NCBI RefSeq assembly: GCF_025685425.1
Contig: NZ_JAGTAS010000058.1
Location: 186,001 to 250,000 of the forward strand
DNA: 64,000 nucleotides
Direction: 5' to 3'
Source: Terriglobus albidus
GTDB lineage: Bacteria > Acidobacteriota > Terriglobia > Terriglobales > Acidobacteriaceae
Part shown: piece after piece, positions 37,140-59,637 of the stretch
Layout of the letters: every line of letters starts with the position of its first letter
How positions within the stretch are numbered: the stretch's first letter is position 1
Position numbers and translations under genes: made by a program
The notes under the pieces: model-generated
Told to the model about the DNA's origin: nothing
The model's input: the letters and a program-made list of their open reading frames with translations, nothing else
The model's database searches: none

Positions 37140-38432
37140 ATGCCGCGCACCGGGAATGACAAAGAACGCGTCTCGAGCAGAAGACAGACAGAGCTCGCTG
37201 TCCTGCAACTGATCCAGCGCGAACCATCCATCTCCCGAGTCGAGCTGGCGCACCGGCTGGGCCTGAGCACCGCCAACATCACCGGCGTTGTGGGTGCTCT
37301 CGTTGAGAAAAACTTCCTTGTGGAAGAGATGTCTTCGGCCAAAGTCGTTGGACGCAGGCGCATCTCGCTCACCATGCATCCCGATCTCGGCAACGTCGTC
37401 GGCGTCGATATCGGAACCTTCAATCTCCGCATTGCTGTCACAGACCTGAACGGGAAGCTGCTCGGCTACCGGGAAGAGGCGACGGAGATGTGGCGCGGAC
37501 GAGAAGCTGTGCTGAGCCGCTGCTTTCAGGTCATCGATGAGGCCCTGGCTGCCTCTGGCATTCCAGTCAGCAAAGTTCTTGGTATTGGGGTTGCCTTCTC
37601 CGGCGTGATCGATGTCGCCGAAGGCATGGTGCTCTCCTATCCAAGACTTGGGCACGCGGAACAGTGGAAGAATGTGCCGCTGAAGAAACTGGTGGAAGAC
37701 TACTTCGGCATTCCTTGCCTGCTGGAAGACAGCGCGCGCGCCGTTGCGACAACAGAGCGCTTTCTGGGTGCGGGCCAGAACTTTCAGGACTTTGTCTATG
37801 TCGATGCCGGCATGGGCATCGGTGCTTCCATCTTTATCGGCGGCAGCATATATCGCGGCTTCAACGGCAGCGCCGGCGAGTTTGGCCACATGACCGTCGA
37901 TGAGAACGGACCGCTCTGCCTTTGCGGCAACAACGGCTGCCTGGAGGCGATGGCCTCGTCTGCAACGATCATTGAATCGGTCCGCAGAGCCATCAGCAAA
38001 GGCGTCATCTCCAAGACGCTGGAGATGGCTAACAACAAGATGGACGGCATCAGTATCGAGATCATCGCCAGGGCCGCTGAGGAGAATGACAGTCTCGCCT
38101 ATCGCGTGCTCTCCGAGGCGGCATCGCATATCGGCGCGTCTGCGGCTGACCTGGTGAACCTGTTGAACCCGGAAGCGATTATCTTTGGCGGCGCCCTGTT
38201 TCGCGCCGCTCCCGTGTTGCTGCTGGACCAGATTCGCCGTGTCGTCCGTCAGCGGGCCATGGAAAAGTCAGTCAACGATGTTCAGCTGCTCACTTCGCCG
38301 CTGGGCACCAATGCCGGAGCAGTCGGTGCGGCGCGCCTGACGGCGGCCGCCATGATCGATACGATTCATCACCGCCGCGGTGCTGAGGCAGCTATACCCA
38401 CCATGCCTCAACCGGCGGTTCCTGCAGGATGA
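37140..38432 (+). CDS. ROK-family transcriptional regulator
   Basis: A NagC/Mlc-type regulator. The N-terminal winged HTH (ELAVLQLIQREPSISRVELA, LSTANITGVVGALV) precedes a sugar-kinase-like ROK domain. That domain has VGVDIGTFNLRIAVTDL (phosphate loop), DAGMGIGASIFIGG, GEFGHMTV and the zinc-binding CLCGNNGCLEA signature. I start at the ATG at 37140, because the 118 in-frame codons before it are antisense to the DegT gene and unlike ROK proteins. It is divergent from the DegT gene and overlaps the TIM-barrel gene tail-to-tail by 41 bases. It probably regulates the surrounding sugar genes; the ligand is unknown. Confidence 0.9.
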   Translation: MPRTGNDKERVSSRRQTELAVLQLIQREPSISRVELAHRLGLSTANITGVVGALVEKNFLVEEMSSAKVVGRRRISLTMHPDLGNVVGVDIGTFNLRIAVTDLNGKLLGYREEATEMWRGREAVLSRCFQVIDEALAASGIPVSKVLGIGVAFSGVIDVAEGMVLSYPRLGHAEQWKNVPLKKLVEDYFGIPCLLEDSARAVATTERFLGAGQNFQDFVYVDAGMGIGASIFIGGSIYRGFNGSAGEFGHMTVDENGPLCLCGNNGCLEAMASSATIIESVRRAISKGVISKTLEMANNKMDGISIEIIARAAEENDSLAYRVLSEAASHIGASAADLVNLLNPEAIIFGGALFRAAPVLLLDQIRRVVRQRAMEKSVNDVQLLTSPLGTNAGAVGAARLTAAAMIDTIHHRRGAEAAIPTMPQPAVPAG

Positions 38433-46758: not shown

Positions 46759-46785
46759 TCAAGATACTGCACGCAATGCCGATGA
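46759..46785 (+). promoter_or_regulatory. Sigma-28 (FliA)-like promoter of the chemoreceptor gene
   Basis: TCAAGATA, 11 bases, GCCGATGA; the known consensus is TAAAGTTT-N11-GCCGATAA. It lies 57 bases upstream of the GTG start. The same arrangement occurs twice more in this window, both times before chemotaxis genes. Confidence 0.6.
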
Positions 46786-46842: not shown

Positions 46843-48447
46843 GTGAACCTGCAACGCTACACCGTCAAACAGAAACTTCTCTTCTCCTACGGAACCATGA
46901 TGATTCTTCTGGTCCTGCTGGGTGGACTCGCCGTTTACGAGATTAGTGGTCTCGGCGAATTGACGTGGGAGCTCGGCATTAAAGACGCGACCAAGATGTA
47001 TAACGCCGGCATGGCGAATGGCCACTCGACCGAGATGCTCGCCGCCAGCCGCAGAATTGCGGTCAAAGAGTCGGTCAATGATGCGGAAGGCCTGAGCCGA
47101 GCCATCGATGAGTACAACATGTACGAGAAGAAGATGCGCGAGGACATCGCCACCATTCTGAAGCAGGGTGTCTCTGCGGAAGGCCGCCCGACCCTGGAAG
47201 CCGCCACTGCCAAGCTGGATAAAGCGGCGCAGGTGTTCCCTCACTACCTTGAGCTGATTCATGCTCACCAGGTCAAAGAGGCCTCGCAGTTTGCAGAGAG
47301 CGAACTTGAGCCTGCCCTGCAAGATGTTGATGCTGCCGGCTCGAAGATGCTGGAACGCCAGAAGGTCGTTATGGGCAAGGCGAATAGCAAGGCAGAAGAT
47401 GCGATCACATTCGCGCGCTGGCTCATCGGCACGCTGCTCACCCTAGGAGCAATCTCCGGAGTTCTGATCGCATTTATCGTCCGCATGCTCGATCGCCAGC
47501 TGCGCCAGGCCGTGCGTGAGCTTTCTGTCGGCTCCGATCAGGTCACCGAGGCGTCGGCCCAGGTCGCCATTTCGAGCCAGAATCTGGCGAAAGACACTTC
47601 CGAGCAGGCCGCAATGATCGAAGAGACCTCAGCTTCAGCAGAGGAGATCAACTCCATGGCGCGCCGCAATGCCGAGAACTCGGATCACTCTACCACCCTG
47701 GTCTCCGAAGCAGTTCGTCATAGTGATGACGCCAATCACGCCGTGGAGCAGTGCGTGGAAGCCATGGATGCACTGAGCGAGTCCAGCGAACAGATCGCCA
47801 AGATCATCGGGGTGATCGATAAGATCGCATTCCAGACCAATATTCTGGCGCTGAACGCTGCGGTTGAAGCCGCGCGTGCCGGTCAAGCCGGTATGGGATT
47901 TGCCGTCGTCGCCGAAGAGGTTCGCAATCTGGCTCAGCGTTGCGCCCAGGCGGCACAAGAGACTTCGGTTCTGATCAAGCGCTCGGTTGACAATACCGCC
48001 GCCGGCCGTGAGCGGATGACCACTCTGGTTGATTCTGGCCGCAAGGTGCATGAAGTCTTTGGCCGCATCAAGATCATGATCGATGAGATACGCATGAGCA
48101 GCCAGGAGCAGGGCAAAGGGATTGAACAGATCAGCCGCGCCATCGGCCGCATGGAGAGTGGCACGCAAAAGAACGCAGCCAATGCGGAAGAAAGCGCTGC
48201 CGCGGCACAAGAGCTGAATGCCCAGTCCGATGCGCTGCGTGGTGTCGCGATGGGGCTGGCGCGCATGACCGGCGTCTCTGTACGTGCCCATTCGCAAAAG
48301 GCGGTTGTGACGCCTGTGCTCAAGCCTGTCAAAGCGCCGGCGGTCCGTCCGGCGATTGCGAAAGTCCCGGTGGTGAACACCTTCGTCCCGCAGCGTCTTG
48401 CACCGGCTGCGGCCAGCAATATCGACGCTAACTTTACCGACTTCTAG
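46843..48447 (+). CDS. Methyl-accepting chemotaxis protein
   Basis: A transmembrane chemoreceptor (534 residues). TM1 is at about 15-37 ([19 protein letters not shown]) and a four-helix-bundle-like ligand domain lies at about 38-190. TM2 is at about 192-212 ([20 protein letters not shown]), followed by a short linker in which a canonical HAMP is hard to see. The long cytoplasmic coiled coil has the signature hairpin [20 protein letters not shown] and [10 protein letters not shown]. There is no C-terminal NWETF-type tether. The start is GTG, behind GGAG. It heads mcp-cheW-cheA-cheR-cheB in one direction, with the sigma-28-like site upstream. Confidence 0.95.
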
Positions 48448-48528: not shown

Positions 48529-49023
48529 ATGGCAATCAAGAACAACAACCAGGCGAAGCAGGTGGCAGATACATCACGCAAACACCTTATCTTCTCGCTC
48601 GGCGAGGAGGAATTTGGCATTCAGGTCCTGAACATCAAGGAGATTATCCAGATGCAGGAGATCACGGCCGTTCCCAAGACCGCGGTCTATGTCAAAGGCG
48701 TCATCAACCTGCGTGGCCAGGTGATTCCGGTGCTCGATCTGTCGGCTCGTTTCAATCTTCCCCAGCGTCAGTACACGCCTCATACCTGCATCGTCGTAGT
48801 CCGGTTAGCCACATCGATGGGCGAGCGCCTGATTGGCGCCGTGGCTGACGGAGTGAGCGAAGTGCTGTCCATCGCGGAAGAGGACATTGAACCCAGCCCG
48901 GACTTCGGCAATGGAGCTTCAGTTCCCTATCTGCTTGGCATGGCGAAGGTTCGCGGAAAAGTAAAGCTGCTGCTCGACACCGACAAGGTCTTCTATATCG
49001 AAGCCTCGCAGGATATCAACTAA
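48529..49023 (+). CDS. cheW: CheW coupling protein
   Basis: Scaffold linking chemoreceptor and CheA. The 164 residues form a CheW domain: IFSLGEEEFGIQVLNIKEII, VKGVINLRGQVIPVLDLSAR and IGAVADGVSEVL match the family well. A strong AGGAG lies 7 bases before the ATG. The gene is 81 bases after mcp and 37 bases before cheA, in one presumed operon. Confidence 0.95.
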   Translation: MAIKNNNQAKQVADTSRKHLIFSLGEEEFGIQVLNIKEIIQMQEITAVPKTAVYVKGVINLRGQVIPVLDLSARFNLPQRQYTPHTCIVVVRLATSMGERLIGAVADGVSEVLSIAEEDIEPSPDFGNGASVPYLLGMAKVRGKVKLLLDTDKVFYIEASQDIN

Positions 49024-49060: not shown

Positions 49061-51373
49061 ATGAGTGCCACGAAAAATACTGCACCGGTTGCCGACCAGC
49101 TTGCTGCGCGGCTCGACGAGCTGGCAACGCTCTGGATGGTCGATGGACCAGGTTCTCTGACCGAACAGCGCCTTATCCAATTGGCTGCACTCGCACAAAA
49201 AGATCCTGCATTTGCAGAGATCGCGAAGCGCGCCAACGCGCTGGCCAATGACCGCTCGAAAGGCAAGATGGTTGCCGAAGAGCCCTTTACCGCGTTTCAG
49301 CGTCTGATGCGTGGTGAAGCGGAACCGGTCGTACAGGCGCCTGCACCAGCGCCTGCGGCTCCCGCCGCCGCACAGACCACGGCCGCAGTCGCTATGGAAG
49401 AAGAGCCGATGGAAGAGGACGAAGTTGCATTCGATGATGATCCTGAAATGCTGGCCGGGTTTGTCACCGAATCGCAGGAACACCTGGCTGCGATTGAAGA
49501 ACAGATTCTCGCACTGGAGCGTGATCCGTCCCAGCTGCCTGCAGTCCATGCGGTCTTCCGCGCCTTCCACACCATCAAGGGCCTGGCGGGTTTCCTTGGC
49601 CTGAAGGGTGTTCAGGGCGTGGCGCATGAGGTCGAAACGCTGCTGGATCACGCACGCAACAGCCGCGTTCAGATCAGCGTCGAGATCGTCGATCTGGTCC
49701 TGGAGAGCTCAGAGTATCTGCAGGCCGAAGTAAACCGTATCAACGGCGCCCTCAATGGAGCTGATCCCGGCAAAGCGAAGAACAACCGCGCTCTGCTGCG
49801 CACCATTGCCACGGTTACTCAACGAGCACTTGAGGGAGGCGCCACCTCCGAACCTGCTGCCGTAGAGAAGACTGCACCGGTAGCCGCACCTGCACCCGCT
49901 CCAGTGAAGGAAGAGACGCCCGCCGCCCTTACACCGAAGATAGAGGCGCCGGCTGCCCCAGCCCCAGTAGCCAAGGAAGATGAGCCTGTTGCTCCTGCTG
50001 TTTCCGCTTCGACTGCTCCCAAGGTGGAAGCCGCCGCGCCAGCCCCTGCGCCAAAAGCAGAGATCTCCGTTCCTGCTGCTCTTGAACTGAAAGCAGAAGC
50101 TGCTCCAACCCCAGCGACGGCACAGAAAAAGGTAGAGCCCGAGCCGGCTGCCGCCATCGCGCCTCAGGCGGCCGTCAACAAGAGCGAACCCATCTCCGCC
50201 TCAATCCGTATCGATACCGCCAAGCTTGACCAGCTTATGGACATGGTGGGGGAGATGGTGATCGCGCAGTCCATCCTGAGCCACAACCCAATAGTCGCCA
50301 ATAATCGCGATGCCAGGCTCATCGGCGACCTGGCGCAACTGGCTCGCATTACCGGCGAGGTCCAGCGCCGCGCCATGAACATCCGCATGATGCCGATCGG
50401 CCCGCTGTTTCAGAAGAATGCCAAGCTGGTTCGTGATCTCTCGCGCCGACACGGCAAGCAGGTGGAATTACTGCTCGCAGGCGAAGGCACAGAACTCGAC
50501 AAGACGATCGCGGAAGAGCTCTCCGATCCATTGCTGCACATGATCCGGAATGCGCTCGATCACGGTATCGAGACGCCACAGGAGCGCGCGGCAGCCGGCA
50601 AGAATCCGACCGCGACATTGCGTCTCTCAGCGGAACACGAGTCCGGCAAGATCGTCGTCTCGATCTCCGATGACGGACGCGGCCTCAATCCGGACAAGAT
50701 CTTCCGCAAGGCTCTGGAACGCGGCCTGGTCACCGAAGATACACAACTGACGGAAACCGAGATCTTCCAGCTCATCTTCTCGCCGGGTTTCTCAACGGCG
50801 GAAAAGATTACGGACATCTCCGGCCGCGGTGTTGGTATGGATGTCGTCCGCAAACATGTAGAGAATCTGCGAGGCCATATCCAGATCGAATCTGAGCTGG
50901 GTAAGGGCACGACCTTTTACATCCACCTTCCGCTCACCCTGGCTATCATCGAAGGCCTTGTAATCGTAGTCGGCGACCACCGCTACATCATTCCGGTCTT
51001 CTCCGTTCGCGAGATGCTGCGCCCCACACCGGAGATGCTGGTCCGGGTACAGGGCACGGAAGAGATGATCCTGATGCGCGGCAACCTCTACCCCCTTGTC
51101 AGGCTCCATCGGCGCTTCGGCATCAAGCCTCGTTCCGAGGATATCTGCCAGGGCCTCGTCGTAGTATGCGAGGGCGCGGGACGTCAGTTCTGTCTCCATG
51201 TGGACGACCTTCTCGGGCGTCAGGAGATTGTGATCAAGAGCCTGGGCGAGACCTTCAGCGATAACACCGGCCTGACTGGATGCGCCATCCTGGGCGATGG
51301 CCGCATCGGCCTGATCCTCGATGTTGTCCAGATCTTCAAAATGCCAAACGAAACCGGTGAGGAGGCAGCATGA
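49061..51373 (+). CDS. cheA: CheA histidine kinase
   Basis: Central chemotaxis kinase (770 residues). An N-terminal helix-rich stretch of about 90 residues precedes the Hpt/P1 domain (about 125-235), whose phospho-accepting His170 lies in AFHTIKGLAGFLG. No clear P2 domain is seen; instead there is a very Ala/Pro-rich linker (about 260-375). P3 (IRIDTAKLDQLMDMVGEMVI) is followed by the P4 ATPase with the N-box MIRNALDHGIETP, SDDGRGLNP and GRGVGMDVV, then the P5 CheW-like domain to the end. Its last four bases overlap the cheR start. Confidence 0.95.
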   Translation: MSATKNTAPVADQLAARLDELATLWMVDGPGSLTEQRLIQLAALAQKDPAFAEIAKRANALANDRSKGKMVAEEPFTAFQRLMRGEAEPVVQAPAPAPAAPAAAQTTAAVAMEEEPMEEDEVAFDDDPEMLAGFVTESQEHLAAIEEQILALERDPSQLPAVHAVFRAFHTIKGLAGFLGLKGVQGVAHEVETLLDHARNSRVQISVEIVDLVLESSEYLQAEVNRINGALNGADPGKAKNNRALLRTIATVTQRALEGGATSEPAAVEKTAPVAAPAPAPVKEETPAALTPKIEAPAAPAPVAKEDEPVAPAVSASTAPKVEAAAPAPAPKAEISVPAALELKAEAAPTPATAQKKVEPEPAAAIAPQAAVNKSEPISASIRIDTAKLDQLMDMVGEMVIAQSILSHNPIVANNRDARLIGDLAQLARITGEVQRRAMNIRMMPIGPLFQKNAKLVRDLSRRHGKQVELLLAGEGTELDKTIAEELSDPLLHMIRNALDHGIETPQERAAAGKNPTATLRLSAEHESGKIVVSISDDGRGLNPDKIFRKALERGLVTEDTQLTETEIFQLIFSPGFSTAEKITDISGRGVGMDVVRKHVENLRGHIQIESELGKGTTFYIHLPLTLAIIEGLVIVVGDHRYIIPVFSVREMLRPTPEMLVRVQGTEEMILMRGNLYPLVRLHRRFGIKPRSEDICQGLVVVCEGAGRQFCLHVDDLLGRQEIVIKSLGETFSDNTGLTGCAILGDGRIGLILDVVQIFKMPNETGEEAA

Positions 51374-52221
51374 GCACAGTCACCACCATCAGTAACCTGA
51401 CACTTTCACAGAAGGACTTTAATCGCTTCAGGAAACTCGCCTACGACTATTGCGGTTTAGCAATTGAGGAGGGTAAGGAAGGTCTGGTTGCCTCTCGCCT
51501 GACCAAGATCATGCGCTCGCTGAATATCGGCTCCTTCTCCGAGTACTACGAATACGTGATCAACGATAAGTCGTCCGACGCTCTGGTGACGATGATCGAC
51601 CACCTGACGACGAACTATACCAATTTCTTCCGCGAACCAAAGCACTTTGAGTTTCTCTCCGGCACCATCTTTCCGGCGCTTGCTGACCGCAGGGAGTACA
51701 CGATCTGGAGCGCGGCCTGTGCCACCGGAGAGGAGCCGTACTCGCTCGCCTTTGCGGCTCATGAGCACTATGGCAATTCCGGACCTACTGTAAAGCTCCT
51801 GGCGACAGATATCTCAACCAAAGTGCTGGCGCGTGCGCAGGATGGGACTTACAACGAGAAGTGCTTCCAGCAGGTTCCGATGGAGGTGCTTCGCAAATAC
51901 CTGCAGCGTGGCGTTGGACCGGCTGCGGGAAACTATCGCGTCAAGCAGTTCATTCGCGAAGCGATCTCCTTCCGCCGGTTGAACCTCATCAGGCAGTTTG
52001 AGAGCTTTGTCGAGAGCTACCCCCTGATCCTTTGCCGGAATGCCATGATCTACTTCGACATTCCGACCCAGCAGGAGCTGGTCAACCGCTTCTATGAGCA
52101 TCTGGAGCCCGGCGGATACTTCTTCGTCGGCCATGCCGAAAGTCTGAATAACCTGAAGCACAGATTCGAATACGTACAGCCCGCTGTCTACAAGAAGCCT
52201 GGTGTGTTGAGATCCCGGTAG
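51370..52221 (+). CDS. cheR: CheR chemoreceptor methyltransferase
   Basis: S-adenosylmethionine-dependent glutamate methyltransferase of chemoreceptors (283 residues). An N-terminal helical domain (DFNRFRKLAYDYCGLAI) leads to TNFFREPKHFEFL, the SAM motif WSAACATGEEPYSLAF, LLATDISTKVLARA and LILCRNAMIYFD near the C-terminus. The ATGA overlap with cheA indicates translational coupling. cheB follows after 7 bases, giving the methylation/demethylation pair in one operon. Confidence 0.95.
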   Translation: MSTVTTISNLTLSQKDFNRFRKLAYDYCGLAIEEGKEGLVASRLTKIMRSLNIGSFSEYYEYVINDKSSDALVTMIDHLTTNYTNFFREPKHFEFLSGTIFPALADRREYTIWSAACATGEEPYSLAFAAHEHYGNSGPTVKLLATDISTKVLARAQDGTYNEKCFQQVPMEVLRKYLQRGVGPAAGNYRVKQFIREAISFRRLNLIRQFESFVESYPLILCRNAMIYFDIPTQQELVNRFYEHLEPGGYFFVGHAESLNNLKHRFEYVQPAVYKKPGVLRSR

Positions 52222-52228
52222 GTCACCG

Positions 52229-53377
52229 ATGAAGACATCCTCTCCGATTCGCGTCCTCATCGTGGACGATTCAGCAACCGTGCGCAAGATTCTTTCCGAC
52301 GCCTTGCGCAATGCCCCTGGGATTGAAGTAGTAGGCACAGCTCCGGATCCATATGTCGCCCGCGAGAAGATCCTCGCATTGAATCCGGACGTTTTGACTC
52401 TCGACATTGAGATGCCGAGAATGGACGGCCTTACGTTTCTGAAGAAGCTGATGGATTACAAGCCTATGCCTGTAATCATGATCAGCTCACTGGGGCAGGC
52501 CTCCGCTGCGGCAACTATGGAAGCCTTCCGCCTGGGAGCCGTTGAGGTCCTTGCGAAACCGCATGGCCCATACTCCGTCGGCGACCTCGCGAACACACTT
52601 GCGGATAAGATCCGCGCCTGTGCACAGGCGAATCCGCGTGCGTTCAAGCCATCGCAGGCGGTCGCGGAGGTATCCGCACCATCGCCGGCGCCAGTCGTTG
52701 CGCAACCCGCGATGCAACCGATCACATCGTGGGTCCCGCCAGCGCCTCCCTCCGGAGCTCTTCCCGGTTTTGCCTCGCGCCGGATTATCGCCATCGGCGC
52801 CTCCACTGGAGGCCCGCAGACGGTTGCGAAGATCGTGAGCCAGTTCCCCGCGGACATGCCGCCGATCCTGATCACACAGCATATGCCGGCGGGCTTCACT
52901 CAACATTTCGCAGAACGGCTGAACAAATCCTGTGCCATGGAAGTCAGAGAGGCTAAAGATGGAGACGATGTCCATCCAGGACTAATCCTGATTGCACCAG
53001 GAGACTTTCACATGACGCTGCAGCACACGAGTGCCGGCCTGAAGGTACGTGTCGCCGGAGGGCCCCAGGTGTGCTTCAGCCGTCCGTCGGTCGATGTCCT
53101 GTTCGCGTCGGTGGCACAGCTTGTGGGTGGTCCCGCATTGGGTGTACTGCTCACCGGTATGGGAACTGACGGAGCTCGCGGCATGATGCAGATGCGTCAG
53201 ACCGGGTCGGTCACGATCGCCCAGGATGAAAACACCAGCATCGTCTACGGTATGCCGAAGGAGGCAACCCGTATGGGTGCGGCAGCAATGACATTGCCGC
53301 TTGAGAAAATTGCGGGTGAGATCGTGAAACAGATCTCACAGCCTTTCGTCAGAAAAGCTGCCGCCATCAGCCGTTAG
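52229..53377 (+). CDS. cheB: CheB protein-glutamate methylesterase
   Basis: Receptor demethylase/deamidase controlled by phosphorylation. The receiver domain (1-120) has acidic VDDS and phospho-acceptor Asp59 in LTLDIEMPRMDG. An Ala/Pro-rich linker leads to the esterase domain (about 187-375) with IAIGASTGGPQTV (catalytic Ser), LITQHMPAGFTQHFAERL (His) and LLTGMGTDGARGM (Asp). The 382-residue length is typical. It ends the mcp-cheB transcription unit and is followed by a hairpin. Confidence 0.95.
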   Translation: MKTSSPIRVLIVDDSATVRKILSDALRNAPGIEVVGTAPDPYVAREKILALNPDVLTLDIEMPRMDGLTFLKKLMDYKPMPVIMISSLGQASAAATMEAFRLGAVEVLAKPHGPYSVGDLANTLADKIRACAQANPRAFKPSQAVAEVSAPSPAPVVAQPAMQPITSWVPPAPPSGALPGFASRRIIAIGASTGGPQTVAKIVSQFPADMPPILITQHMPAGFTQHFAERLNKSCAMEVREAKDGDDVHPGLILIAPGDFHMTLQHTSAGLKVRVAGGPQVCFSRPSVDVLFASVAQLVGGPALGVLLTGMGTDGARGMMQMRQTGSVTIAQDENTSIVYGMPKEATRMGAAAMTLPLEKIAGEIVKQISQPFVRKAAAISR

Positions 53378-56832: not shown

Positions 56833-57261
56833 CTAATAGGTCTTCACCCATGCGACCAGCACACCTTCTTCCCAATCGAACTGGGCTCCCTCTTCCTGCG
56901 AGACGGGATGCATCACCGTCGGCGAGGTCAGAGCGAAGGCGTGATCGTGATAGCAATGCCCGAGCACGTTGCCGCATACCATGTTAGCCAGCTCATTCAT
57001 GACTTCTCCAACCTGCTGCTCGCTCAGATCAACGGGATCCTCTCCGAGGAAATCGGAGGCGATACGAACCGCTACCGGCCGCGGCGCGCGGATTCCAAAG
57101 CGGCCCTCCTCCGGACCGTGGAAGGTGAGGGTGTGCTCCATCCAGGGCTCGCCCGCGAAGGTTGCCATATCGACCGGTTCTCCCGGCAGAATAAAGCACA
57201 TCGACTCCAGCACTTCGGTCATCGCTGTTTGAAGAGTTGCCGATATCTGTTCGACTGACAT
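56833..57261 (-). CDS. cheX: CheX-type CheY-phosphate phosphatase
   Basis: A 142-residue CheX/CheC-family protein that should speed CheY-P dephosphorylation. The catalytic Glu-x-x-Asn motif is visible in VGEVMNELANMVCGNVLG, and FGIRAPRPVAVRIASDFLGE matches the family fold. A strong GGAGG lies before the ATG. It is the last gene of a cheD-cheY-cheX minus-strand operon, 2 bases from the cheY stop. A second CheX-like protein is encoded at 59.2 kb. Confidence 0.82.
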   Translation of the reverse strand: MSVEQISATLQTAMTEVLESMCFILPGEPVDMATFAGEPWMEHTLTFHGPEEGRFGIRAPRPVAVRIASDFLGEDPVDLSEQQVGEVMNELANMVCGNVLGHCYHDHAFALTSPTVMHPVSQEEGAQFDWEEGVLVAWVKTY

Positions 57262-57263
57262 GG

Positions 57264-57644
57264 TTAAGCCTCCACGAATAGCTCGTTCAACGCCACGCCC
57301 AGCGTCTCCGGAGCAAAGGGTTTGGTGACATATCCTTTGGCGCCCAGGGCATTCATGCGCCGCACGCGTTCCTCACTGCGGTCGGTGGAGATCACCATCA
57401 CCGGCAGTTGCGACAGAATGTCATCCTGCGACATCTGTTCCAATAGCTCTTCCCCAGTCATACGCGGCATGTTGATGTCGGTCAGGACCACGTCCACAGG
57501 CTCGATGCGCAGAATATCCAGTGCTTCCACGCCATCGTTGGCCTCGAAGCACTCCTGCGTCTCGAAGTTCGAGAGCATGAGCACTTTCCGAATCACCTTA
57601 CGCATCGCCGGGGAATCATCGACGATCAATACATTCCGTGTCAT
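57264..57644 (-). CDS. cheY: CheY-like response regulator
   Basis: A single receiver domain (126 residues) without an output domain. NVLIVDDSPAMRKVIRKVL carries the acidic pair, VVLTDINMPRMTG the phospho-acceptor Asp, VMVISTD the conserved Thr/Ser region, and AKGYVTKPF the conserved Lys. Its ATG overlaps the cheD stop by 4 bases. It lies between cheD and cheX, so it is probably the substrate of the adjacent CheX. Confidence 0.92.
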   Translation of the reverse strand: MTRNVLIVDDSPAMRKVIRKVLMLSNFETQECFEANDGVEALDILRIEPVDVVLTDINMPRMTGEELLEQMSQDDILSQLPVMVISTDRSEERVRRMNALGAKGYVTKPFAPETLGVALNELFVEA

Positions 57645-58144
57645 ACGTTGCGCTTCCTTTCCTCTGTTGCAGGCACCAATTCTCGTTCTTTACCACCATG
57701 CGAGATCACAACTCTCCCAGAGCTCGCATCTATGTGGACCGTTCTGGGCTCGTCACCGCCAACCTCTTCGTGGTGAACCATGACGCCGGCCTTCCACAGG
57801 ATCTTGCGCGCGGCCACATGGTTACGTTTCCCAATCTGAAATACGTCATTCGAACCAAGAACCTGGGCGCCACCGATCAGCGAAACTTTGAGCCGCTGCT
57901 TCGATGCTCCAAGCTCATAGGACATGCGGAAGAAAGCGGGAATACCGCTATCCGCAAACATAAATGGCTTACTACGGGCTCGTTCCGGGTCGGTCGAGGA
58001 ATCCGGAAGCATGAAGTGCAATAGACCCGCTACTCCCGCGACCGGGTCGTGAATAACGACAGCGATGCACGAACCTAAAGCGTGCGTCGCCAGCACACCC
58101 TGCGGATCAGCAGTCACGACGCAATCGCTGATACCTACGGTCAT
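57641..58144 (-). CDS. cheD: CheD chemoreceptor glutamine deamidase
   Basis: Deamidates receptor glutamines and interacts with CheC/CheX-type proteins in other bacteria. The family signature is VLATHALGSCIAVVIHD with the nucleophilic Cys, followed by GVAGLLHFMLPDS (catalytic His) and KVSLIGGAQVLG. The ATG at 58144 gives 167 residues. A longer frame from 58231 would begin upstream of the sigma-28-like -10 box at 58207-58214 and cannot be fully transcribed from that promoter. First gene of the minus-strand trio. Confidence 0.92.
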   Translation of the reverse strand: MTVGISDCVVTADPQGVLATHALGSCIAVVIHDPVAGVAGLLHFMLPDSSTDPERARSKPFMFADSGIPAFFRMSYELGASKQRLKVSLIGGAQVLGSNDVFQIGKRNHVAARKILWKAGVMVHHEEVGGDEPRTVHIDASSGRVVISHGGKERELVPATEERKRNV

Positions 58145-58206
58145 GAGAGATCTGCTTATTAATGTCACGATACCGCCCAAAAGTATTTCGAGATCATTCA
58201 CCCCTC

Positions 58207-58233
58207 TTATCGGCCCGGCAGGAGGCAACATGA
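58207..58233 (-). promoter_or_regulatory. Sigma-28-like promoter of cheD
   Basis: On the minus strand TCATGTTG, an 11-base spacer, then GCCGATAA (exact -10 consensus). It is 63 bases upstream of the cheD ATG. Confidence 0.65.
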
Positions 58234-58267
58234 GCCCACCTTTTGGGCGAAAGTTCGCTTGTGTGCC

Positions 58268-58294
58268 CTCATCTTTCAGAAATGGCCGCCGATA
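58268..58294 (+). promoter_or_regulatory. Sigma-28-like promoter of the second cheY
   Basis: TCATCTTT, an 11-base spacer, then GCCGATAA (exact -10 consensus). It is 40 bases upstream of the ATG at 58335 and back-to-back with the cheD promoter. Confidence 0.68.
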
Positions 58295-58334
58295 AGCTCA
58301 CCAGTCGCATCCCGCGACTACAAGCGAGCGAAAT

Positions 58335-58700
58335 ATGGACATCCTCTTGGTAGACGACAGCAAGACAATGCGCCAGCTGGTTAAACGAGCGCTACGCCAG
58401 GCCGGCTACGAAAATCTGCAGATCGGCGAGGCCGGCAACGGCGCCGAGGCGCTCAGCATGGTGCAGGCTGAACAGCCGAAACTCGTACTTTCGGACTGGA
58501 ATATGCCGGAAATGCTTGGCATTGATTTATTGAAACGTGTTCGTGGCCAAAACTGCCAGGTGCCCTTCGGCTTTATCACCTCGGAATCGTCGGAAGACAT
58601 CCGCGAGACCGCGATGAGAGAAGGCGCCAGCTTTTTCATCACCAAACCCTTTACCACAGAAAATATCGACGCGGCGCTTGCGCCGCATATGAGCAAGTAG
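58335..58700 (+). CDS. CheY-like response regulator, second copy
   Basis: A single-domain receiver of 121 residues: ILLVDDSKTMRQLVKRAL, phospho-acceptor Asp in LVLSDWNMPEMLG, GFITSESS and FFITKPF. It is clearly distinct from the other CheY here (different alpha4-beta5 region), so the two may serve different outputs, or one may act as a phosphate sink. It is the first gene of a plus-strand trio, with the next ATG 2 bases after its stop. Confidence 0.92.
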   Translation: MDILLVDDSKTMRQLVKRALRQAGYENLQIGEAGNGAEALSMVQAEQPKLVLSDWNMPEMLGIDLLKRVRGQNCQVPFGFITSESSEDIRETAMREGASFFITKPFTTENIDAALAPHMSK

Positions 58701-58702
58701 CT

Positions 58703-59170
58703 ATGTCAGGACCGACTGCATTTGCGCTCTCCCACTTATTCACCGACCTGGTGGACCGCCCCGTCAACTTCTCGGAAGCAAAGACCCTGCCTGCAGCAGA
58801 TGCAAAAAAGGTCTATGCCGTTTACGAGACGTTACCGGCGGGACGGCCCATCATCGTCCAGGCAGATCTCCCCTTTGTTGCGGCCATTGCCGGGCTCCTG
58901 ATTGGAATGCCGGCAAATATCGCGCTCGAACGAGCGCAGGTCGAACCCATGGAAGACAGCGTGCGTGACCCCATCTATGAGGCTTTGAATATCTGCTCGA
59001 CCTGCCTCAGTGGTGATGAGCGGGTGCTGCTTCGCATGATGACCACGAATAAGACAAAGATCCTTCATCCTGCTTCAGAGCTCCTGAAGAAGTCTGGATC
59101 AGCCGTCAACTACAAAGTTGTTATCTCTGGAAAGGACTGCGGCCTCGTCTCCGTGCTGGGAGTCTACTAG
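58703..59170 (+). CDS. Uncharacterised chemotaxis-locus protein, possibly a divergent CheX/CheC relative
   Basis: A 155-residue soluble protein that I do not recognise with confidence. It sits in the cheY-orf-cheX unit (2 bases after cheY, 23 bases before cheX). The segment DPIYEALNICSTCLSG holds a Glu-x-x-Asn pair at about the place where CheX/CheC proteins carry theirs, and the predicted order of elements (central helix, then VVISGKDCGLVSVLGVY as a strand pair) would suit that fold. The sequence is otherwise unlike the two clear CheX proteins. It could be a phosphatase, or an adaptor that has lost activity. Confidence 0.6.
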   Translation: MSGPTAFALSHLFTDLVDRPVNFSEAKTLPAADAKKVYAVYETLPAGRPIIVQADLPFVAAIAGLLIGMPANIALERAQVEPMEDSVRDPIYEALNICSTCLSGDERVLLRMMTTNKTKILHPASELLKKSGSAVNYKVVISGKDCGLVSVLGVY

Positions 59171-59193: not shown

Positions 59194-59637
59194 ATGAACG
59201 TATCAAACACAATACAGGATGCGCTGAGTGCACTTACGGGCTGTGAGGTACAGATGTCGCAGACTGGCAGCGAGAGCTTTCCGGTAGAGTTACATGCCGT
59301 TGTCGATTTCAACGGTACGCCCTCGGGCATGATCCGCCTGGAGTTGAGCCAGGCCACAGCCGATCGCCTGAGCGCGACTATGCTCGGTTTCGACGATCCC
59401 AGCGAAGTTGATGACATCGAGATGAGAAATGACGCGATCGGAGAGATCGTGAACATCATCGCCGGCAAGGTAAAAGCCCTGAGGGGCAAGACCGATGCAC
59501 TGCTATCCATGCCCATCGTCGGCGACATACGGGCCGAACGTCCGGAGCTGGCTCACGACAACTTCAGCGGAATCTTCATGGTTGGAGAAGACATCGTCCG
59601 CGTCTCTACAGGTTGGGATCATCCAGCCGAGCGATAA
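59194..59637 (+). CDS. cheX: CheX-type phosphatase, second copy
   Basis: A CheX/CheC-family protein of 147 residues with the Glu-x-x-Asn motif in NDAIGEIVNIIAGKVKALRG and flanking strands (FNGTPSGMIRLELSQATADR, FSGIFMVGEDIVRVSTGW). An AGGAGG lies 8 bases before the ATG. It follows the second cheY and the uncharacterised protein, mirroring the minus-strand cheY-cheX pair. The next gene starts 38 bases after its stop. Confidence 0.82.
   Translation: MNVSNTIQDALSALTGCEVQMSQTGSESFPVELHAVVDFNGTPSGMIRLELSQATADRLSATMLGFDDPSEVDDIEMRNDAIGEIVNIIAGKVKALRGKTDALLSMPIVGDIRAERPELAHDNFSGIFMVGEDIVRVSTGWDHPAER

Follow-up and report, generated by a model that had tools for sequence, protein, structure and literature searches.

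The window, a stretch of 64,000 nucleotides from Terriglobus albidus, belongs to a genome of 6.10 Mb in 58 contigs (G000) and carries a chemotaxis region in which two gene units diverge from a shared intergenic interval. Pfam matches place CheX, CheY and CheD to the left of this interval and CheY, a 155-aa protein and CheX to its right. CheA, CheR and CheB lie still further to the left, preceded by an MCP and CheW. The features are as follows, in order of position.

46759 to 46785, plus strand: FliA-type promoter TCAAGATA-N11-GCCGATGA before the MCP gene that heads the cheW-cheA-cheR-cheB cluster
46843 to 48447, plus strand: MCP chemoreceptor (Pfam MCPsignal, 143.2 bits)
48529 to 49023, plus strand: cheW (Pfam)
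49061 to 51373, plus strand: cheA (Pfam)
51370 to 52221, plus strand: cheR (Pfam)
52229 to 53377, plus strand: cheB (Pfam)
56833 to 57261, minus strand: cheX1, CheY-P phosphatase family (Pfam CheX, 48 bits)
57264 to 57644, minus strand: cheY1, single receiver domain (Pfam)
57641 to 58144, minus strand: cheD, chemoreceptor deamidase (Pfam CheD, 95.7 bits; start ATG 58144 by comparison with relatives)
58207 to 58214, minus strand: -10 box GCCGATAA of the predicted cheD-cheY1-cheX1 promoter (exact in three of four genomes, one change in G128)
58226 to 58233, minus strand: -35 box TCATGTTG of the predicted cheD promoter (overlaps an upstream ATG at 58231)
58269 to 58276, plus strand: -35 box TCATCTTT of the predicted cheY2 promoter
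58288 to 58295, plus strand: -10 box GCCGATAA of the predicted cheY2-ORF155-cheX2 promoter (identical in all four genomes)
58335 to 58700, plus strand: cheY2, single receiver domain (Pfam)
58703 to 59170, plus strand: ORF155, 155-aa protein of no recognised family (relatives by tblastn)
59194 to 59637, plus strand: cheX2, CheY-P phosphatase family (Pfam CheX, 46.2 bits)

The CheX, CheD and CheY matches agree with an earlier note on this DNA, which had read the locus as a phosphatase/deamidase module. Among named records, the closest is a MAG of the Acidobacteriaceae, whose CheD is 97% identical. ORF155 (58703-59170) gives no Pfam match at E values up to 1 and no NCBIfam match at E values up to 0.1; it lies between cheY2 and cheX2 in G000 and in two congeners (G128 and G194), is also present in a third (G203), and has a relative of 35% identity in Silvibacterium (L082:3515-3967). 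The longest cheD reading frame opens at ATG 58231, inside the minus-strand -35 box, and therefore could not be used from the minus-strand promoter. In two relatives the longest cheD frame starts within 3 residues of 58144 (L065) or about 12 residues before it (L064), and ATG 58144 is most likely the true start on this comparison. An automatic gene call would place the start of cheD at ATG 58231 (span 58145-58231).

Between cheD and cheY2, the minus strand reads TCATGTTG-CCTCCTGCCGG-GCCGATAA at 58207-58233 and the plus strand reads TCATCTTT-CAGAAATGGCC-GCCGATAA at 58269-58295, each with a spacer of 11 bases (N11). The two -35 boxes are innermost, separated by 35 bases, and the -10 boxes are directed outward, ending 39 bases before the start codon of cheY2 (58335) and 62 bases before that of cheD, if ATG 58144 is the start. 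Both -35 boxes share five of eight bases with the consensus for E. coli FliA, which is given as TAAAGTTT-N11-GCCGATAA (PMC2859248). The earlier note had described an exact -10 box on each strand with a related -35 box at a distance of 11 bases, and both the sequence and the shuffles below bear this out; its box positions also stand, with the interval extended from 58294 to 58295, where the plus-strand -10 box ends.

The window contains seven copies of the GCCGATAA box where 1.56 would be expected, and none of 100 shuffles reached seven. The combined pattern TCAN16GCCGATAA is found in the window only at the cheD and cheY2 sites; 300 dinucleotide-preserving shuffles contained 0.013 such sites on average, never two and never a divergent pair. 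No sigma-70-like TTGACA-N16-18-TATAAT is present in 58100-58400, and the best sigma-70 match at the interval carries five mismatches, which is no better than in shuffles. The consensus for sigma-54 promoters is TGGCACG-N4-TTGCW, and no match with up to three mismatches exists between the two start codons (58145 to 58334).

A flagellar sigma factor elsewhere in the genome had been predicted from these boxes, and it is present together with the anti-sigma factor FlgM. FliA (C23:104573-105232) scores 258.7 bits against a TIGR02479 cut-off of 189.6 and is the only protein of G000 over that cut-off. It aligns from region 2 to region 4 with the FliA of 6pmi, which we take to be the E. coli protein (E 1.5e-55), and the alignment includes the ESRVSQ[IL]HS stretch of region 4. 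The fliA gene sits among flagellar genes that span about 24 kb; here FlgL, FlgK and FliG exceed their NCBIfam cut-offs, and FlhA likewise exceeds its own. FliI of the cluster passes the broader FliI/YscN model and fails the FliI equivalogs, and FliF (a fragment), FliH and FlgJ, as well as FliD on contig C39, match NCBIfam models below the cut-off; these names rest partly on gene order. FlgM, a protein of 98 aa encoded just upstream of flgK-flgL, scores 50.2 bits with Pfam and 54.2 bits with the NCBIfam equivalog, the cut-off of which is 40.75.

Boxes of the same type recur at other motility genes of G000. The flgM-flgK-flgL unit has TCAAGTCT-N11-GCCGATAA ahead of flgM (L010:1501-1527), flbD-motA-motB has TAATGTGT-N11-GCCGATAA and fliC has TAATGTTC-N11-ACCGATGA upstream, and TAATGGCG-N11-GCCGATAA stands before a TonB_C-domain gene that is followed by an MCP gene (C50:37818-37844, L058). 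At flgM, the final bases of the -10 box GCCGATAA form the TAA stop of the preceding flgJ-like gene. Of the four MCP genes in G000, two have no convincing box upstream. The absence of fliA and of the motif before motility genes, named in the earlier note as evidence against its reading, was looked for and is not what the genome holds: fliA is there, with boxes before flgM, flbD-motAB, fliC and MCP genes. The same note's idea that a -35 box starting with TCA is a local variant does not hold, as the fliC and flbD boxes here start with TAA and the flgKL promoter of E. coli FliA is TCAAGTCC-N11-GCCGATAA (PMC4183435); because that -35 box also starts with TCA, such a start is not peculiar to the organism of the window.

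Counted over the whole genome, the motif is modestly enriched. The pattern TCAAGTTT-N11-GCCGATAA with up to three mismatches has 43 matches versus 32 for the backward control (gene context was inspected for 17 of these sites and the flbD site), and at up to two mismatches three of ten sites lie before motility genes. TCAN16GCCGATAA has ten matches versus none for the backward control, three of them before motility genes (flgM, cheD and cheY); of the other seven, four fall inside an ORF of at least 80 aa, one has no such ORF nearby, and two lie ahead of an ORF with poor -35 boxes (TCACAGAA and TCAGCGGA). Boxes precede several motility genes, and the whole-genome excess is only modest. Motif counts were accordingly rejected as proof by themselves, given the size of this excess and the seven of ten TCAN16GCCGATAA sites that are not before motility genes.

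A comparison of spacings was made in 233 kb of G000; because motility genes and motif hits partly guided the choice of these stretches, it is fairer than an absolute count. With up to three mismatches, TAAAGTTT-N11-GCCGATAA is found at seven sites, four of which lie before motility genes, against six sites in total over 13 other spacings. An exact -10 box with up to four mismatches in the -35 box gives eight sites at N11 versus 14 over the 13 spacings, and up to four mismatches overall, no more than one of them in the -10 box, gives 12 versus 59. Across 67 named cheD loci there is no excess at N11, with three sites versus none to three at each of the other spacings from 6 to 17. Two of these three N11 sites are the cheD/cheY divergon itself in L081, which is probably a record of G203. 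The named loci thus give no support to a more general association of cheD with the box, and the divergon with its boxes is shown for the genus only, as the 67 named loci hold no N11 excess beyond L081. In Silvibacterium (L082) genes of the same kinds stand in a different arrangement: the cheY2-ORF155-cheX2 unit is divergent from an MCP gene, cheD lies inside the other unit, and no box was found at the criteria used.

Orthologs of CheD exist in four of 19 genomes of the genus (G000, G128, G194 and G203), and both boxes with their N11 spacers are kept in all four, with a difference in one -10 base in G128. When the cheD and cheY promoters of the four genomes are aligned, 15 of 16 columns of the -10 boxes and 13 of 16 columns of the -35 boxes are invariant, compared with 6 of 22 in the spacers; outside the boxes, invariant columns amount to 14 of 35 in the inter-promoter stretch, 40 of 62 in the cheD leader and 28 of 39 in the cheY leader.

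G194 is the most diverged relative of G000 that keeps the che cluster. At five promoters (cheD, cheY, MCP, fliC and flbD), it shares with G000 39 of 40 bases in the -10 boxes and 33 of 40 in the -35 boxes, against 21 of 55 in the spacers (Fisher p 1.9e-10 for boxes versus spacers, with columns treated as independent). The cheD, cheY and MCP promoters alone give 44 of 48 for the boxes versus 9 of 33 for the spacers (p 1.7e-9), and at the MCP promoter the boxes are kept with only one of 11 spacer bases. The fliC and flbD sites of G194 were found by a box scan, and alignment sets both opposite the G000 sites; for fliC, the G000 and G194 rows of the upstream alignment were used and the G128 row was left out. 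In G128, the spacer at flbD is 12 bases long (N12). The boxes are thus under selection across related genomes, being conserved where the spacers drift. In congeners with FliA, nine of 14 flagellin loci, of which G205 contributes two, have a box facing fliC at up to three mismatches from a slightly relaxed consensus; in congeners lacking FliA, two of five loci have one. These counts are not controlled for chance and include two loci, L148 and L158, where the flagellin begins elsewhere than expected.

Because of the boxes, the presence of FliA and FlgM, the N11 architecture shared between promoters and the conservation of the boxes, all of which are directly observed, the interval 58207-58295 can with high confidence be read as two divergent FliA (sigma-28) promoters, and both units as members of the flagellar regulon. 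From this we infer the binding of FliA, the start sites, the extents of the operons and the timing of expression. Both chemotaxis units would very probably be switched on together with the flagella. In studied systems, FlgM blocks FliA up to the completion of the hook-basal body and its own export. By analogy, FlgM would here restrain FliA while that structure is being built and would then itself be exported, upon which RNA polymerase with FliA would read both boxes outward. The leftward transcript, predicted to start near 58200, would carry cheD-cheY1-cheX1, and the rightward one, predicted to start near 58302, would carry cheY2-ORF155-cheX2. The MCP-cheWARB cluster, fliC, flbD-motAB and flgMKL would be transcribed simultaneously, and CheY, the CheX phosphatases and the receptor deamidase CheD would therefore be made in cells that are completing a flagellum.

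G194 departs from this picture. Of the 19 genomes, 14 have FliA (E up to 1e-40), and the same 14 have FlhA, which is over its cut-off in 11; G000, G128 and G203 all have FliA. G194, by contrast, has neither FliA nor FlhA, yet its boxes at cheD, cheY, MCP, fliC and flbD are in place, and each of the eleven genes in the two che units has a relative there at 72-90% identity. On either flank of the flagellar cluster, the G194 contig and G000 are in synteny. G194 still has fliF, fliG and fliH, a remnant of fliI 175 codons long, and also che, mot, fliC and fliD-like genes; from a junction on C4 at about 38,337-38,350 (L207:18337-18350) the contig resumes just past flgL. In G000 the endpoints of this deletion correspond to about 116,550 and 96,576, some 20 kb apart, so that a contiguous stretch of about 20 kb from most of fliI through flgL is missing, including fliA, flhA, flgM and flgK. 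An assembly gap was ruled out, as the syntenic stretch of the contig runs through without an N. The most plausible reading of G194 is that most of the flagellar cluster was lost recently and the promoters were left behind; since the loss is a contiguous internal deletion, the boxes may not have had time to decay. G194 as a contradiction of the FliA model is explained in this way. Three further genomes estimated at 99% complete (G095, G200 and G202; L176, L177 and L178) lack FliA and FlhA and keep flgK, flgL and fliC, with flgK directly after the response-regulator gene that borders the flagellar cluster in G000; G206, at 80% completeness, also has neither FliA nor FlhA.

The boxes could also be promoters that another sigma factor reads or shares, in which case the che units would be expressible without flagella. 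It is the retention of five boxes and all eleven che relatives in G194 that speaks for this, but a deletion leaving a fliI stump may have occurred too recently for the boxes to decay, FliA is present in each of the other three genomes that carry the divergon, and in G000 only one protein passes the FliA cut-off, which leaves this reading with a slim chance. It is equally improbable that the che, mot and flagellin boxes of G194 are still functional, with another sigma factor running the regulon and the chemotaxis proteins serving a flagellum-independent output. That the boxes match by chance within a conserved stretch between genes, the che genes using unrecognised housekeeping or other promoters, is scarcely credible: the modest genome-wide excess and the partial conservation of the interval outside the boxes would agree with it, but the divergent pair arose in none of 300 shuffles, boxes are conserved and spacers drift at five promoters, and scans for sigma-70 and sigma-54 sites found none between the genes.

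The FliA reading places a CheD/CheX-type chemotaxis cluster, probably acidobacterial, in a sigma-28 regulon by its sequence and conservation. The footprint across four genomes, together with a congener that has a natural fliA deletion, makes the regulon easy to test. Among the literature matches listed, titles and abstract openings held no account of sigma-28 control of chemotaxis genes in Acidobacteria.

In Geobacter, sigma-28 sites have been predicted at one major che cluster and at fliC (PMC2577667). There, che cluster 1 of Geobacter sulfurreducens is likewise a non-enterobacterial che cluster with a predicted sigma-28 site, alongside sites at fliC, and the Geobacter species studied have a recognisable site at only one major che cluster. 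Here, by comparison, three units of one che cluster (cheD, cheY2 and MCP) carry a site, and the evidence of conservation is added. The class 3 promoters of E. coli FliA (tar-tap-cheRBYZ, motAB-cheAW, flgMN, flgKL and fliC) share with those described here the -10 box, the 11-base spacer and the classes of target, and have a similar -35 box; the flgKL promoter of E. coli, TCAAGTCC-N11-GCCGATAA, has a TCA form comparable to that of the cheD and cheY2 boxes, and the flgM box here is TCAAGTCT-N11-GCCGATAA. Unlike in E. coli, the targets here include cheD, cheX and the gene for the 155-aa protein, which form a divergon, and it is from sequence only that their wiring is known. This is a well-supported, ordinary extension of known regulatory logic, in an arrangement familiar from E. 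coli.
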